Part shown: positions 1-29,407 of the stretch, piece by piece
How the letters are laid out: each line of letters starts with the position of its first letter
Position numbering within the stretch: the first letter of the stretch is position 1
Virus record (IMG/VR): IMGVR_UViG_3300007540_000069
Coordinates: 1-29,407 of that record
Length of the DNA: 29,407 bases
Reading direction: 5' to 3' (one strand)
Origin: a virus
Notes under the pieces: generated by a model
Seen by the model: only the letters and a program-made list of their open reading frames with translations
Databases searched by the model: none
What the model was told of the DNA's origin: nothing
Position numbers and translations under genes: made by a program

Positions 1-1304
1 AAAAATACGGCGATGATGCTTTTGAAATCAAAGCTCCTAAGGGTAGGATTTTGGGTGGGAGGCAAAATGAATCCTTCAGTATTGCCGAAAGCATCGAATA
101 CACTGACGGTGATCGTAAGCGTATCATGGAAGCACTCAAAGGTTTCTGGGAACAGCTTGAGGATTACATCAAGGACGTTGCACACGTCAACGAAACATAT
201 TCCGAATCCGGAGATGCTCGGGTGTACATTCTTCAGTTCGAAGACTCCGAAGATCGTCTTAAGACCGTCACTAAAATTGACAGTATGGCTAAACAGCTTG
301 ACGATGAACTTGATGATATTTTTGATGAGTTTGGTCGATCTGAATACGATAGTAATTTCTCTTCTTCGGCATCTCAGTTCGAGGGAACTCTAAGAGCTAC
401 TCTAGGCATCCTCGATAAGGATGGCCTATCAGATGCGTATTTCCTGATGAAGTCTATGTCAGCAAGAAAAATTAGACTTGCAATGCTGAAGCAAACCGCT
501 CTTCAAAAACTGGTCAAGCTTCAAACCGCTCCATTCGTGGCACCGACCGATGATGTCGCTGATGCCGAAGATGGTTCTGTTGTCAGTGAACCAATTCCAT
601 CCGATGGAGTTGCGTTGCCTGTTGGTGGAAATCCTCTCGGTAATACTGCGGCTGCATCTATCTCACGTCTCGGAGAATCCAAAAAGGTCAAGGTGAATAA
701 TATTCAGCCTAAGGACAAAGATGGTGACGGTGAGCCAGACGAAGATGAAGCCGAAGATGAAATTGATGAGTCTGTAGGTGGTGTTTCGGTAAGTGGTGGT
801 GGTATCTCACTTCCGACCGATGCCAAGAAACCCGGTTCTGGTAAGAAGCTTCGTCATGGTCGCCGTAAGTTCAAGCTACGAGCTAAATCCAAAATCGCCA
901 AGAAGACTGCCCCTAAAAAGGTTGTCTATCGCCACGCCGAGGACACAGTAAAGTCTGGCAACGCTATCGAGGAAGTCAAAGCTCCGAAGGTTCCTAAAAA
1001 AGATCAGCATATCAAAGATGCTGATGATGTTGTGAACACTGGCCTACGTGGTGCAAATGCCAAGTTCCCTCACATTCCAAAGAACCCTATGAAGGTTGAA
1101 GGAAACATCTGGCAGGGCGATATCGAAGACAGTGTTATCGATGCGATTCGTCTAATGCAGAACGAAGCAGTTCAAAGATGGATTGTTCAATATCCTGATG
1201 AGCAAACAGGCAACACCAAACGCAAAGTATTCACCAACAAGGGACTATTCATGAACTTTATGGACAAAACCGATGGTGCTGTTGAGATGGATCAGGAAGA
1301 TTAA
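1..1304 (+). CDS. Unidentified protein, possibly virion-associated (5' end outside window)
   Basis: The frame is open from base 3, so the true start lies upstream; an in-frame TTG at 51 has no special support. About 433 residues are visible. The N-terminal half is helical and acidic. A low-complexity linker follows, with a DxDGDGxPD calcium-loop-like stretch (714-743) inside a run of Asp/Glu, and then a strongly basic Lys/Arg-rich segment (about 830-940). The C-terminal part looks globular and contains KFPHIPK (1063-1083), whose codons are identical to a stretch of the gp32 gene. I do not recognise the family. Charge-segregated proteins of this kind occur among phage scaffold or core proteins, but that is only a guess. 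Confidence 0.75.
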   Translation, partial: KYGDDAFEIKAPKGRILGGRQNESFSIAESIEYTDGDRKRIMEALKGFWEQLEDYIKDVAHVNETYSESGDARVYILQFEDSEDRLKTVTKIDSMAKQLDDELDDIFDEFGRSEYDSNFSSSASQFEGTLRATLGILDKDGLSDAYFLMKSMSARKIRLAMLKQTALQKLVKLQTAPFVAPTDDVADAEDGSVVSEPIPSDGVALPVGGNPLGNTAAASISRLGESKKVKVNNIQPKDKDGDGEPDEDEAEDEIDESVGGVSVSGGGISLPTDAKKPGSGKKLRHGRRKFKLRAKSKIAKKTAPKKVVYRHAEDTVKSGNAIEEVKAPKVPKKDQHIKDADDVVNTGLRGANAKFPHIPKNPMKVEGNIWQGDIEDSVIDAIRLMQNEAVQRWIVQYPDEQTGNTKRKVFTNKGLFMNFMDKTDGAVEMDQED

Positions 1305-3320: not shown

Positions 3321-4550
3321 ATGCGAATTATCAATATGTACACTAAGGATGGTTGCCCATTCTGCGTGAAGGCCAAGAGGTTTCTGGCTGATCGCGACAT
3401 TCGATTTACAACCCATGACCTTAGTGATGATGAACTTCGCAAGGACTTCTATCGCGATACGGGAACTTCAAGTGTTCCCCAGATTTATGCAACATGTGAT
3501 GGTGAGGAAGTTCATATTGGAGGCTATGATAATTTGATCGAGTCTCCGATTATTCTCGGACCTCAGATGTACATACCCAAAGAGGCGTATGTGTTCGACT
3601 ATAAGGCCCCGGTCGAAATGGCCAAGTCTCAGAATGATGTGTTCTGGACCTCAGATGAAATTGAAGTCGAAAAAGATGTTCAGGACATCATGGTCAACTT
3701 TACCGATTCTGAGCGCCATGGGGTGATTACGGTCCTCAAGCTATTCACCCTATATGAGCTAGTTGCCGGTAATGAATATTGGGGCGGTCGAGTCAAGAAC
3801 TCCTTCCCCAGACCAGACATCCAGAAAATGGCCAATTCTTTCTCATATTTTGAGATCAATGTCCATGCACCATTCTACAACAAAATCAACGAAGCCCTAC
3901 ACCTCAACAACGAAGAATTCTACACAGATTATGTGAACGATCCTGACCTCAAGGCTAGGATGGAATTTGTTGATGAATATGTCAACAATGAGGATGATGA
4001 TCTATTGTCTTTGGCAGTTTTCTCTATGGTTGAGGGAGCTGTCCTATATTCCTCGTTCGCATTCCTGAAGCACTTCCAATCCAAGGGTAAGAACAAGCTC
4101 CTCAATGTCGTACGAGGAATTAATTTCAGCGTACGGGATGAGAACCTACACTGTCTGGGTGGAGCATGGCTTTACAAGCAACTGAAGGCCGAACTAGAGG
4201 CTTCCAGAGCATTGGGTGACCACGAGGCCCGAGAACAGAAAATCATTGATGCTGCCATGCAGGTTCGCGACCACGAGTTTAGAGTCGTTGACATGATTTT
4301 CGAGAAAGGTGATATCGAAGGCATCACTAAGCGTCAAATGCAGCACTTTATCGAATCTCGGATCGACGAATGCCTTAAACAGCTCGACATGAAATCAATA
4401 TTCAAAGTCACATACAATCCAATTGCCGAATGGTTCTATGATGGGATCAATGGATATCAGATGAATGATTTTTTCACTGGGATTGGAAATCAATACAATA
4501 GAAACTGGAACGAAGACAACTTTACATGGGAACCCGAAGATGGTGAATGA
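3321..4550 (+). CDS. nrdB: Glutaredoxin-ribonucleotide reductase small subunit fusion (class I NrdB)
   Basis: A 409-residue fusion. Residues 1-80 are a glutaredoxin: active site CPFC (12-15), the cis-Pro loop TSSVP (49-53) and GGYD (67-70). From about 100 on is the radical-generating beta subunit of class I ribonucleotide reductase. Metal ligands can be placed at E146, E178, H182, E238, E274 and H277 (RDENLH), with Y186 in HAPFY at the radical-tyrosine position. E178 and H182 are four residues apart, whereas the usual motif is ExxH. The fused domain presumably re-reduces the C-terminal cysteines of NrdA. It overlaps nrdA by 11 bases. Grx fusions to RNR subunits are known but uncommon. Confidence 0.95.
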   Translation: MRIINMYTKDGCPFCVKAKRFLADRDIRFTTHDLSDDELRKDFYRDTGTSSVPQIYATCDGEEVHIGGYDNLIESPIILGPQMYIPKEAYVFDYKAPVEMAKSQNDVFWTSDEIEVEKDVQDIMVNFTDSERHGVITVLKLFTLYELVAGNEYWGGRVKNSFPRPDIQKMANSFSYFEINVHAPFYNKINEALHLNNEEFYTDYVNDPDLKARMEFVDEYVNNEDDDLLSLAVFSMVEGAVLYSSFAFLKHFQSKGKNKLLNVVRGINFSVRDENLHCLGGAWLYKQLKAELEASRALGDHEAREQKIIDAAMQVRDHEFRVVDMIFEKGDIEGITKRQMQHFIESRIDECLKQLDMKSIFKVTYNPIAEWFYDGINGYQMNDFFTGIGNQYNRNWNEDNFTWEPEDGE

Positions 4551-6249
4551 CTCAGACCTGACAATTATCGACAAACTCAGGGAGGAGCGTAAACTAGCAG
4601 TAGAAGCCGGAACGGCCCCCGATTGGTTGACTACTAATGGCTATCAATTATTTCAAAGCAAATATGTGCTGCCGGGCGAAACCGTAAAGTCCACGTTCGA
4701 GAGAATTGCCAAGGCCGCAGCTAAACACCTACCGGAAGACATCCAAGGACAGGCAGAATCAAAGTTCTTCCAGATGCTATGGAATGGCTGGCTGGCTCTG
4801 GCAACACCAGTACTCGCCAATATGGGAACAGCCAGAGGATGTCCTGTGTCCTGTTCCGGTGGATATGTCGAAGATTCGATCTATGGCTTCTACGATGCTC
4901 AATTAGAAACAGCGATCCTGACCAAAAATGGTTTCGGGACGTCTTCGTATCTGGGGAACATTAGACCGAGAGGCGCACCTATCGCTTCTGGTGGCCATGC
5001 GTCAGGCACATTGACAGTCTTGAAGGATTTCGTACAGTTATCTCGTGACGTCTCCCAAGGAAATACTCGTAGGGGCGCTTGGGCTGGATATATCGAGATC
5101 GATCACCCAGACTTCTTTGAAATTGTGGAACACATGTATTCAAATCCTGACGATTTAAATATCGGATGGATTGTATCCAAGGCTTTCATTGCCCGGCTAG
5201 AGGCTAATGATCCAGATGCAATTCGTCGATGGAAACGTGCGATGAAAACAAAATGCGTGACCGGTAAGGGATATCTATTCAAGGTCGATCATGTCAACGA
5301 TCAAAACCCTCCAATGTATGCCGCCCATGACCTATCAGTCAAGGCATCAAATCTCTGCACAGAGATCACTCTTCATTCAGATGCTGATCACACATTCACA
5401 TGTGTCCTATCGTCAATGAATGCATCCAAGTATGATGAATGGAAGAATACCGATTCCGTTTTCTGGGCAACGATCTTTCTGGATTGTGTTGCCGAAGAAT
5501 TTATCACATTGGGTCGCAACATCAGAGGGCTTGAGCGGGCTGTACGAGCTACCGAAAAGGGTAGGGCACTCGGGCTAGGACTTCTAGGTTATCACACCTA
5601 CATCCAGTCACACATGATCCCCTTCGAACAGTCCGCTGATATCAATATTGAGATATTCAAACACCTTGACGATGAAAGTCTTCGGGCATCGAAATATATG
5701 GCCGAGGTTATGGGAGAACCTGAATGGTGCCGAGGATTTGGAGTTCGCAATACTCATAGACTAGCTGTAGCTCCCAACACATCTTCGGCATTGATTTGTG
5801 GTGGCGTTTCTCAGGGCATCGAACCAGTGGTGGAGAATGTTTACAATCAGGCAACTGCTGCCGGAGAGATGGAACGGGTCAATCCTGCATTCATAGCCTT
5901 TGCAAAAAGTAGAGGAAAGTGGACCAAGGCCCTTGCAAAGAACATCATCGACACCAATGGATCAGTCCAACATGTTGACTGGATGACACCTCACGAGAAG
6001 GATGTTTTTAAAACCGCATTCGAGATCGATCAATACTCAATCTTGAAACTGGCTAGTGCCAGACAAAAATATATCGATCAGGCACAATCAATCAATTTGT
6101 TCTTTGGTGCTGATGCCCACGAGGCACATATTTCCAGAGTCCATAGGTATGGTTTGATGGATGATAATATCAAGAGTCTGTATTACATGAGATCGAAGGC
6201 CGGTATCAGTGCCGCCCGAGAATCTACCTGTGAATCCTGTGAAGGATAA
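4540..6249 (+). CDS. nrdA: Ribonucleotide reductase large subunit (class I NrdA)
   Basis: The ATG at 4540 overlaps nrdB and gives 569 residues; the longer reading from 4465 would run deep into nrdB. The protein reduces ribonucleoside diphosphates. Visible landmarks are the first active-site Cys in GCPVSCSGG (C105 or C101), N271/C273/E275 in NLCTEI, C288 in CVLSSMN, the radical-transfer pair Y548-Y549 and the C-terminal CESC (C564, C567). It is shorter than the roughly 750-residue cellular enzymes and has no room for an N-terminal ATP-cone, so overall allosteric dATP inhibition is probably missing. The C-terminal CxxC is the likely substrate of the glutaredoxin domain fused to NrdB. Confidence 0.95.
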   Translation: MVNDSDLTIIDKLREERKLAVEAGTAPDWLTTNGYQLFQSKYVLPGETVKSTFERIAKAAAKHLPEDIQGQAESKFFQMLWNGWLALATPVLANMGTARGCPVSCSGGYVEDSIYGFYDAQLETAILTKNGFGTSSYLGNIRPRGAPIASGGHASGTLTVLKDFVQLSRDVSQGNTRRGAWAGYIEIDHPDFFEIVEHMYSNPDDLNIGWIVSKAFIARLEANDPDAIRRWKRAMKTKCVTGKGYLFKVDHVNDQNPPMYAAHDLSVKASNLCTEITLHSDADHTFTCVLSSMNASKYDEWKNTDSVFWATIFLDCVAEEFITLGRNIRGLERAVRATEKGRALGLGLLGYHTYIQSHMIPFEQSADINIEIFKHLDDESLRASKYMAEVMGEPEWCRGFGVRNTHRLAVAPNTSSALICGGVSQGIEPVVENVYNQATAAGEMERVNPAFIAFAKSRGKWTKALAKNIIDTNGSVQHVDWMTPHEKDVFKTAFEIDQYSILKLASARQKYIDQAQSINLFFGADAHEAHISRVHRYGLMDDNIKSLYYMRSKAGISAARESTCESCEG

Positions 6250-23929: not shown

Positions 23930-24815
23930 ATATGATCACGATGATTTAGTTGATAAGTCAACAAGCGAAGTTATCGTAAGCGATCCGTCACGATTTATTG
24001 CAAATAGGTTTCAGGCGTTTGCTGGTAATATTCATTCAAATATCACTGATAGTGACGACAAGCACACGGCCTTTACCACTTGGCATACCAGACTCATTGA
24101 CACTTTCATTGAGTGTGTCCAAGATGTAAAATGTGATGAAGAAAACGCCTTGGCAACATTTTATGTCAAATTTGAACCCTATGCCAAGTGGTTCGTAGCC
24201 TTTGGTTATATGCTTCCATCTAAACATCCTATGGATACTGGTATTATCAACAGATATGCACTATGGCGGTCGGGACTGCCTACGCAACTGCCTGATGCTG
24301 CCCAAGTTGATAAGGCAACTTCGGGCGATTTCAAATTGTCAATGGGGGACTTGTGTGAAATTTCCCATGGTAAGGCTTTGTATGATGTTGCTCTCCATCA
24401 GCATATGGAGAGCGATCCCATCGACTCATTTGAAGAAATATTACAACGATTCCCAAATCTTGAGTATAATGACCGGCATCATCTGATGATTATGGATACC
24501 CCCGATATGATCGATCTTGTCGAAGAGCTTAGGGCTATAACAGAAAAACAATCCAAGACAGTCCTGCATGCCAAAGATATTATCGAAGATCACAAGACAC
24601 TTACCATTCAACGCAATAATTTAAAGGACCAATTGGTGATCGCCACCAACGCAGTTATTCCTCTCCAAGAAGAGAATGGGAACTTGATGACGTTTCAAAG
24701 ACGAGTTCTTGGGGCGTGTGGGTTCTCACATGAGGGCTTGTCTAGTGGTGCCGTCACTATCGATGATCTTATCGATATCATCAACGACGCCATAGACGGT
24801 GATGATGATGGTTGA
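23922..24815 (+). CDS. Protein with shared C-terminal module (member 4), between 33 and 59
   Basis: ATG 23922 overlaps gene 33; 297 residues. The first 190 residues are a distinct helical domain (AFTTWHTRLIDTFIECVQDV; FYVKFEPYAKWFVAFGYMLP). A coiled-coil stretch follows (about 205-260), then the module RRVLGACGFSHEGLSSGAVT, IDDLIDII and an acidic end. Genes 33 and 59 are adjacent in T4, so this looks like an insertion of a family member that also occurs in the 20695-22232 cluster. Function unknown. The 3' end overlaps gp59 by about 14 bases. Confidence 0.72.
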   Translation: MAKYDHDDLVDKSTSEVIVSDPSRFIANRFQAFAGNIHSNITDSDDKHTAFTTWHTRLIDTFIECVQDVKCDEENALATFYVKFEPYAKWFVAFGYMLPSKHPMDTGIINRYALWRSGLPTQLPDAAQVDKATSGDFKLSMGDLCEISHGKALYDVALHQHMESDPIDSFEEILQRFPNLEYNDRHHLMIMDTPDMIDLVEELRAITEKQSKTVLHAKDIIEDHKTLTIQRNNLKDQLVIATNAVIPLQEENGNLMTFQRRVLGACGFSHEGLSSGAVTIDDLIDIINDAIDGDDDG

Positions 24816-25395
24816 TGCGGTCGAAGTCTATCAGATGTATAATGCTATCCGATTGCACTTCACCAGTAAGAGCTATGACTGCATCAAATATAATATGAAG
24901 TCTCATGCGACTCCCGAATCATATTGGAAGCGACGAGATAAGGGGTTCTTTGCGCGTCTTGCAAGAAAACTCCGTACGGCAGATAATGTCAAAGGATATC
25001 TCGTCGCCAACTTTCTGGCAGACAACACATGGATTGGAGATATGGACGATGATGTTTTCCGAGAATGGGAAGCCCGTCAAGAATCTCTGACATACACATT
25101 CGAGAGCGACGTTCGACAATTGTCCGAACATCCTCTAAAAGAAATTCTTGTTTCGGTCGATGGTAATGTTCCATCAATCGTTCAAGATATGATAGCTATT
25201 GAAGTCTCTATCGAGACAGTAGTTATCATCGATGCGATCACAGATTTCATTCGTAAGAACGATGATCGTATCACCGATACATTGCTATGGCCAGAGGTGA
25301 AACTCAAGCTGCAAAAGTATAGATCGTTTATGGACCTTAGTCCAACCCGTCTCCAAAAATTTGCAGAAATTATGAGAAAACACTTTACATCATAG
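24802..25395 (+). CDS. 59: DNA helicase loader, T4 gp59-like
   Basis: The frame begins with ATG at 24802, 24805 and 24808 (GTG at 24799); the exact start is open, giving about 195-198 residues. VYQMYNAIRLHFTSKSYDCI, then KYN, ESYWKRRDKGFFARLARK and NFLADNTWIGD align well with T4 gp59 as I remember it (VYKLYLMIKQHM, YDVIKYN, YQKRRDKYFFQKL, NLVANQDAWIGD). gp59 loads gp41 helicase on gp32-coated forks and D-loops. The position directly before gene 32 fits. Confidence 0.9.
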   Translation: MMMVDAVEVYQMYNAIRLHFTSKSYDCIKYNMKSHATPESYWKRRDKGFFARLARKLRTADNVKGYLVANFLADNTWIGDMDDDVFREWEARQESLTYTFESDVRQLSEHPLKEILVSVDGNVPSIVQDMIAIEVSIETVVIIDAITDFIRKNDDRITDTLLWPEVKLKLQKYRSFMDLSPTRLQKFAEIMRKHFTS

Positions 25396-25480: not shown

Positions 25481-26425
25481 ATGGGTTTTTCAGACTTTAA
25501 GAAATCTCGGCGTTCGGTCGAGGAAATGATCCAAGTTGCAAAGCAGATCGATCAGACTAAAACATCAGGCGATGATCGTATCTGGAAGCCAACTGCCGAC
25601 AAGGCCGGTAACGGTACGGCACTCATTCGATTTGTGGGACCAGCACATAACCATGGTGACACATTCGAATACGTCAAGTTCTTCAATCACTTTTTCCAAG
25701 GACCAACCGGAAAGTGGTATGTACAGAACTCACTATCAACTCTCAATCAAGACGATCCTGTAGGCGACTATAATCGTGCCCTGTGGAATGCAGGACGGGA
25801 AGACCTTGCCCGAAAGTATAAGCGCAAGCTTCACTACTATGCCAACATTGTGGTTCTGGAAGACGATAATAATCCAGACGCAGTAGGTAAGGTGTGGATT
25901 TATGATTTCGGTGCCACTGTCTACGATATGATCAAGGATGCAATGGAACCCAAGTTCCCTCACATTCCAAAGATCAATCCGTTCGACTTCGATGAGGGTG
26001 CCAATCTTCGACTGATGTATGAGATTGGTTCTAACAAGCAGCGGACATATGCCAAGTCATACTTTGAGCCTCAAAGCCCATTGTATGGTGGTGATGATAA
26101 GATGCAAGAGATGGTGTATAACAGCATGCATCCCTTGGAAGCAGAGATTGCTCCGGATAAGTTCCGGACATATGCAGAGCTAGAGGCAGAACTCTATGCT
26201 GTGCTTGGGGAACTGTCCCCATCTCAGAAGGCCGCTGCTGCCGGTGCTGCAACACTTCCTGTTGCTCCTGCACCAGTACGACCAACAGTGGATAGTCGAT
26301 CACCTATGATTTCTGATACTGCCGAGACGATCCGGGAGATGAGAATGCCCATTGATGATGATGATGATGATGATGATCTCGATGCCAACATCGACTTCTT
26401 CAAGAATATGTCATTGGATGATTAA
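25481..26425 (+). CDS. 32: Single-stranded DNA-binding protein, T4 gp32-like
   Basis: In the 314 residues, the basic N-terminal element KKSRRS (7-12) serves cooperativity. The core includes FVGPAHNHGDTFEYVKFFNH, WYVQNSLSTLNQDDPVGDYN (79-98), KRKLHYYANIVVLED (114-128) and the NPFDFDEGANLRL segment. The C-terminal tail is very acidic (a run of 8 Asp), as needed for contacts with gp59 and other replication proteins. There is no cysteine anywhere, so the T4 zinc site is absent, as in cyanophage-type gp32. It coats single-stranded DNA in replication, recombination and repair. Confidence 0.93.
   Translation: MGFSDFKKSRRSVEEMIQVAKQIDQTKTSGDDRIWKPTADKAGNGTALIRFVGPAHNHGDTFEYVKFFNHFFQGPTGKWYVQNSLSTLNQDDPVGDYNRALWNAGREDLARKYKRKLHYYANIVVLEDDNNPDAVGKVWIYDFGATVYDMIKDAMEPKFPHIPKINPFDFDEGANLRLMYEIGSNKQRTYAKSYFEPQSPLYGGDDKMQEMVYNSMHPLEAEIAPDKFRTYAELEAELYAVLGELSPSQKAAAAGAATLPVAPAPVRPTVDSRSPMISDTAETIREMRMPIDDDDDDDDLDANIDFFKNMSLDD
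26354..26377 (+). repeat. (GAT)8 trinucleotide run in gene 32
   Basis: Eight GAT codons in a row encode the Asp tail of gp32. It can vary in length by slippage without leaving frame. Confidence 0.8.
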
Positions 26426-28968: not shown

Positions 28969-29217
28969 ATGTCCATGGCCATACGAGTAGATCATGGTCT
29001 GGGTGTCCCCGGTTACTATGATCAGTTCTTTGGAGGTGGTGCCCACAAGAAACGTCTTGAGGCTACCATTCAGGATATGCGGCGAGCATGGGAGGAAATG
29101 TCTGGCAACGGGTTCTATCATCCTGACTTGGAAGACATGTATGCTAACCAATACGAGGATTGCCAGCTAGTCACAGACATTCCTATGCTGGCCTCTGAAG
29201 CACCTGTAGGTGATTAA
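28969..29217 (+). CDS. Hypothetical protein, 82 aa
   Basis: ATG 28969 follows AGAGGA (28957-28962); a GTG at 28918 in the same frame would overlap the previous gene. The protein contains GLGVPGYYDQFFGGG and a Trp/Tyr-rich acidic C-terminus. It is the last + strand gene; its stop overlaps the stop of a minus-strand gene. Confidence 0.65.
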   Translation: MSMAIRVDHGLGVPGYYDQFFGGGAHKKRLEATIQDMRRAWEEMSGNGFYHPDLEDMYANQYEDCQLVTDIPMLASEAPVGD

Positions 29218-29407
29218 GTTAGTGAGAGTGCCTGAGAAACTGGTACCATACTAGGATATACATTCCTACTCGTATTATTGTTAGAGACTGTACTAGAATT
29301 GTTAACAGCATTCATAATCTGGATGCTGCTATTTTGATTCGTGGTAGCGATATCTCTTGAGGTCGAGTCCACTGATGCAGCTCTTCGGGTCGTATTGGCC
29401 GAAGCAA
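29214..29407 (-). CDS. Partial minus-strand gene, C-terminus of a Ser/Thr/Asn-rich protein
   Basis: On the minus strand the frame is open from the window edge to a TAA at 29216-29214, giving the last 63 residues of a protein (for example STSRDIATTNQNSS and SNNNTSRNVYPSMVPVSQAL). The codons show a clear purine-first, pyrimidine-last pattern, and no + strand frame is open here. The low-complexity Ser/Thr/Asn composition suits a phage structural or fibre-type protein, but the family is unknown. It is convergent with the 28969 gene, the stop codons overlapping by 2 bases. Confidence 0.65.
   Translation of the reverse strand, partial: ASANTTRRAASVDSTSRDIATTNQNSSIQIMNAVNNSSTVSNNNTSRNVYPSMVPVSQALSLT

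Follow-up and report, generated by a model that had tools for sequence, protein, structure and literature searches.

Short sequences that recur at multiple sites of a single T4-type genome have been described as PeSLs, that is, mobile regulatory cassettes of T4-type phages that combine an early promoter with a stem-loop and lie between genes (Genome Biol Evol 2010, 2014, as mentioned in PMC4503421). The 24-base repeat described here is like these elements, so far as that text characterizes them, in being a short sequence that recurs within one T4-type genome; unlike them, both of its copies lie inside open frames, the 24-mer on its own is predicted to form no hairpin, and simple consensus scans gave no sigma-70-type promoter overlapping either copy. 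Among the best matches listed for a literature search on short intragenomic copying, nothing was on point, as judged by titles and the beginnings of abstracts.

The window (the whole stretch of DNA that was analysed, 29,407 nt) contains the 24-mer CCAAGTTCCCTCACATTCCAAAGA as an exact match at 1060-1083 and at 25950-25973. The two copies and the genes around them are as follows.

3..1304, + strand: gene 1, open at the left end of the window, 433 aa here, no known family
1060..1083, + strand: copy A, the KFPHIPK codons with two flanking bases on the 5' side and one on the 3' side, in gene 1 (exact match, phase, translation)
24799..25395, + strand: helicase loader family (phrog_269), the gene preceding gene 32 (PHROG match)
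25481..26425, + strand: gene 32, T4-type single-stranded DNA-binding protein, 314 aa (phrog_224, PF08804, structure model)
25950..25973, + strand: copy B, gp32 residues 158-164 (exact match, position, family alignment)

As the sequence-only reading had reported, the two segments are identical, encode KFPHIPK with the two reading frames in the same phase and use the same synonymous codons; on rechecking, the match is exact and seven of seven codons are equal. The identity ends abruptly, with no extra matching base on either flank of either copy. The 24-mer is the longest direct repeat in the window, the next being 15 nt when a TGATGA run at 26353 inside gp32 is set aside. No third site is present in the window at up to three mismatches, and no ten-base piece of the 24-mer occurs outside the two sites on either strand. 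The search for further copies that had been proposed was also run on the near-identical 42-kb contig IMGVR_UViG_3300025543_000062 and gave the same result (two copies only, up to three mismatches allowed). The 24-base repeat between gene 1 and gene 32 is genuine.

An exact scan of IMG/VR for the 24-mer identified four further stretches on three contigs, all of which are strain copies of the same two sites; the 42-kb contig carries both copies, and two more contigs carry one copy each. Because the same two sites recur in three other contigs, the repeat is not an assembly slip of the window record alone. The main aligned pieces of the strain contigs are at least 99.2% identical to the window, and neither copy differs between strains; with strains about 99% identical or closer, this conservation carries little weight. 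The exact 24-mer was found at no third site in IMG/VR and nowhere in the cellular genome collection, and none of nine other phage records contains it at up to three mismatches. Across the tract, all four matching stretches (on three contigs, a small sample) keep colinearity with the window, and the two sites are linked in none of them; the rearrangements joining these points that the sequence-only reading had proposed to look for are absent from these stretches, and its suggestion of a recombination hot spot is left without support.

Elsewhere in the strain comparison, the first 11301 bases of the window differ from the 42-kb contig in 17 places, 16 of which fall at 44-362 (the remaining one is at 4163), and this cluster suggests mosaic exchange between strains. 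Contig IMGVR_UViG_3300022200_003528 loses colinearity with the window after its base 5104 (window 28929 onward) and resumes at window 29196-29407 with 93% identity, about 270 bases being absent.

How common such repeats are was surveyed in nine phage records (18 stretches of 40 kb each), counting exact repeats of at least 20 bases that lie at least 300 bases apart and leaving out low-complexity repeats and those with alike flanks; ORFs were called by length alone, a weakness of the survey. Repeats of 20-35 nt were found in eight of the 18 stretches (18 rows). Only one of these rows joins two different length-called ORFs with strand and phase in agreement, and it has a copy inside a called tRNA-Pro gene; another, of 32 nt, joins two length-called ORFs on opposite strands, with neither copy in a called tRNA. 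One row pairs a tRNA-Ala with a place just outside a tRNA gene, and the remaining rows lie within one ORF or have one copy outside ORFs. Thus, short dispersed repeats are ordinary in T4-type phages; the present repeat was the only one seen to be in phase between two clear protein genes.

Once KFPHIPK is given, seven matching synonymous codons have a probability of about 0.002; their agreement therefore favours copying of DNA over convergence of peptides. The flanks are no better matched than background (simple DNA scoring against 5000 random pairs; 13% score as well upstream and 93% downstream). The tract therefore has the pattern looked for in an ectopic copy or gene conversion, that is, DNA identity that includes synonymous sites, abrupt ends and unlike flanks. 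Upstream of the tract, no longer homology between the two proteins was found. Downstream there is a borderline, gapped likeness of NP, EG and N, encoded by different codons in the two genes; an equally good score is reached by 3.5-4.2% of random segments, and this likeness may be chance.

Ten other IMG/VR stretches could encode KFPHIPK, with 15 to 19 of the 21 bases in agreement and open frames of 15-160 residues. In tblastn with the whole proteins, the best of these is L124 to gp32 (E 0.049; 24% over 108 residues, in a frame open for 15 residues only), and L125 matches gene 1 at E 0.17 (16 residues); the peptides alone gave better E-values (to 1e-4, for L125), but they had been picked for holding the heptapeptide. 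We took the ten stretches as chance occurrences.

The gene at 25481-26425 is a genuine T4-type gp32, so the name given to it by the sequence-only reading stands, and it resembles known T4-type gp32 in both sequence and core fold. It matches phrog_224 (E 3.3e-80, 271.3 bits) and Pfam PF08804 (96.3 bits; curated cut-off 26.8), and its structure model, which is confident in the core, matches the cores of RB69 gp32 (2a1k; Z 22.5 over 210 residues, 2.4 Å) and T4 gp32 (1gpc; Z 21.6). By model and alignment, copy B is located in a loop between helix 145-155 and strand 175-182, ahead of the NPFDF block, and the tract aligns with the family without an indel. The alignment contains the window gp32 and 100 loci among the matches listed; two of these are strain copies and one is cut off before the site, leaving 97 readable relatives. 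The relatives are distant, with all 2368 phage records below 60% identity and those in a further comparison at most 48%.

Among these 97 readable relatives from the matches listed, P157, two of whose three bases are within the tract, is kept in all 97, and position 159 is occupied by F in 87 relatives, by Y in 8 and by L in 2; for this reason, part of the tract looks native to gp32. Another part looks unlike the family: K158 occurs once (in Xanthomonas phage X1), P160 three times, and H161 and I162 never, the relatives having D161 in 92 cases and E162 in 95 instead. KFPHIPK as a whole occurs in none of the 97, and the window gp32 differs from the family majority (Q-F-Q-D-E-T-P at 158-164) at all positions of the loop except one of the seven. 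Judged by this alignment, the tract is a poor match to the gp32 family but not an exceptional one: 25 of 209 heptamer windows in gp32 match the majority at no more than one position, as the tract does, and the protein keeps 65 of 95 residues that are near-invariant in 74 distinct relatives (three further rows, L019-L021, were left out), having lost 30.

The window gp32 also differs from relatives L009-L012 in having no cysteine in the stretch (residues about 69-98) that aligns with their CPxC motif, and many relatives are likewise without it. We take these cysteines to be the zinc site known from T4, which the window gp32 and many of its relatives probably do not have. A literature search on gp32 and zinc returned no match.

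Gene 1 is complete in the 42-kb contig (9185-11302, 705 aa), and copy A corresponds to residues 626-632 of the full protein. A single-sequence model, poor (mean pLDDT 39.5) and used only as a hint, places these residues with low confidence in a linker predicted to be coil, before a small C-terminal helix-strand-strand-helix unit. No Pfam family matches gene 1 at E 0.1, and its only two PHROG matches (E 0.014 and 0.063) are both of unknown function. A tblastn search of 50,697 phage records, with E-values of up to 1 accepted, found no relative; an IMG/VR search, by a method that requires shared peptide words, returned near-identical strains only, and a search of 12 chosen records, run without a positive control and hence weak, returned no relatives. 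The gene is preceded by a cytidyltransferase family member and phrog_407 and followed by ribonucleotide reductase genes, a neighbourhood that resembles those of cyanophage ACG-2014a and phage C48C1. When L112, C48C1 and ACG-2014a were reached via the conserved upstream neighbour phrog_407, the surrounding DNA matched gene 1 by tblastn at chance level only (best E 0.82). The comparison of the two sites in relatives that the sequence-only reading had proposed was therefore informative on one side: the gp32 site can be read in 97 relatives, all distant and all without KFPHIPK, and the gene 1 site in strain copies only. Downstream of gene 1, at 3321-4550, a thioredoxin-domain stretch (phrog_22, residues 4-74) is fused ahead of the small ribonucleotide reductase subunit (phrog_86, residues 83-402).

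Our best reading, to which we assign a probability of roughly two in three (0.68), is that a single short ectopic copy was made between the two genes in the recent history of the lineage, more likely from gp32 to gene 1. A DNA tract of at least 24 bases would have been copied once from one gene to the other, more likely with gene 32 as donor and the unstructured linker of gene 1 as recipient, e.g., by a strand end that switched template, or by conversion, during recombination-driven replication. Such replication is usual in T4-type phages. The copy would have survived with both frames staying open and both sites tolerating the tract. Of the options offered by the sequence-only reading, a recent copy or gene conversion is thus the best supported, by the identical synonymous codons, the background-level flanks and the lack of a third site. 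Some observations fit this reading less well: a blind DNA copy would give coinciding frames in roughly one case in five or six (a figure reckoned from the frames of the 24-mer that are open), which leaves some room for a cause at the level of protein, and a single recent copy does not explain the NP, EG and N shared downstream with different codons. If true, the repeat is a clean small example of in-phase ectopic copying between unrelated genes in a phage genome, present across strains; it is probably a small evolutionary accident with no sign of a working system, and the finding would weigh more only if the copied peptide worked in its new place.

That the gene 1 sequence overwrote the gp32 loop by gene conversion is unlikely, although the loop has features of a sequence that was replaced: six of the seven gp32 tract residues differ from the family majority, and the near-invariant D161 and E162 are gone. 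Against this direction, an exact replacement of equal length, with no indel and with the F of the family retained, would require coincidence, and gp32 is divergent in many other places; a gp32 source accounts more readily for the unchanged length and the retained F, and for this reason gp32 is slightly favoured as donor. A functional explanation, in which KFPHIPK is a short binding motif of both proteins for one partner and was kept or copied under selection, would account for the shared phase, for the position of the tract in a loop of gp32 and a predicted coil of gene 1, and for the borderline likeness downstream with different codons. We consider it very unlikely: selection on a peptide alone does not preserve synonymous codons, the motif is absent from all 97 readable gp32 relatives among the matches listed, and a six-frame search of the window and the 42-kb contig for FPHIP, KFPH, PHIPK or K.PHIP returned only the two sites. 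The shared binding peptide suggested by the sequence-only reading is thus not needed, and the ten other stretches that could encode it differ in their codons. A more specific proposal, that the gene 1 protein mimics the gp32 loop with a peptide acquired from gp32 and thereby competes for, or recruits, a partner of gp32, with the copy kept by selection, is highly improbable; if true, T4-type phages would more generally have, in short ectopic copying, a means of passing binding peptides from one protein to another.

Two further explanations were weighed. The tract could be a DNA or RNA site (protein-binding, regulatory or for recombination) that happens to fall in two genes, as its exact identity and its invariance between strains might suggest; this is extremely unlikely, given that the strains are too similar for their conservation to weigh much, that the 42-kb contig holds two copies only and that no recombinant junction appears among the four stretches. 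Scans by simple consensus, restricted for promoters to the sigma-70 type, gave no promoter- or terminator-like site that overlaps copy A or copy B; apart from copy A, there are a weak promoter-like match at 1282-1310 and a minus-strand terminator-like match at 1025-1003. The window has no Rfam match, the 24-mer alone is predicted to be unpaired, and the folds around it differ between the two sites, being somewhat better than shuffles in gp32 (z -1.44) and worse in gene 1 (z 1.30), so no structure is shared. Plain chance deserves hardly any weight, in agreement with the sequence-only reading, which had called chance identity of such length very unlikely: base composition predicts 1.8e-6 exact repeats of at least 24 bases per window, the longest repeat in each of 60 order-4 Markov sequences was 13-17 nt, and 100 dinucleotide shuffles produced no match to the 24-mer at up to three mismatches. 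KFPHIPK is the sole heptapeptide common to two of the 30 predicted genes (a second repeated heptamer belongs to a poly-D run within gp32), but a shared heptapeptide by itself is not very rare, with 0.054 expected from composition. Because the first stage presumably covered many windows, the per-window probability exaggerates the surprise, and chance across very many scanned windows keeps a very small share of the probability.

A second repeat lies upstream of the window in the 42-kb contig, where an exact 39-base sequence occurs at 1826-1864 and 3346-3384 and ends 2 and 0 bases, respectively, ahead of the start codons of two NAD-salvage genes.

1867-2928 of the 42-kb contig: nucleotidyltransferase-Nudix protein, the NAD-salvage gene after the first 39-base copy
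3385-4791 of the 42-kb contig: nicotinamide phosphoribosyltransferase, the NAD-salvage gene after the second 39-base copy

For this repeat, Rfam gave no credible match, IMG/VR contains its first 21 bases at no other place, and its fold is not better than that of shuffles; its GGAG is in the loop of a predicted CUUAG/CUAAG hairpin. We regard the 39-base repeat as a candidate shared leader for a phage NAD-restoration pair, and it is arguably more interesting than the 24-base repeat.
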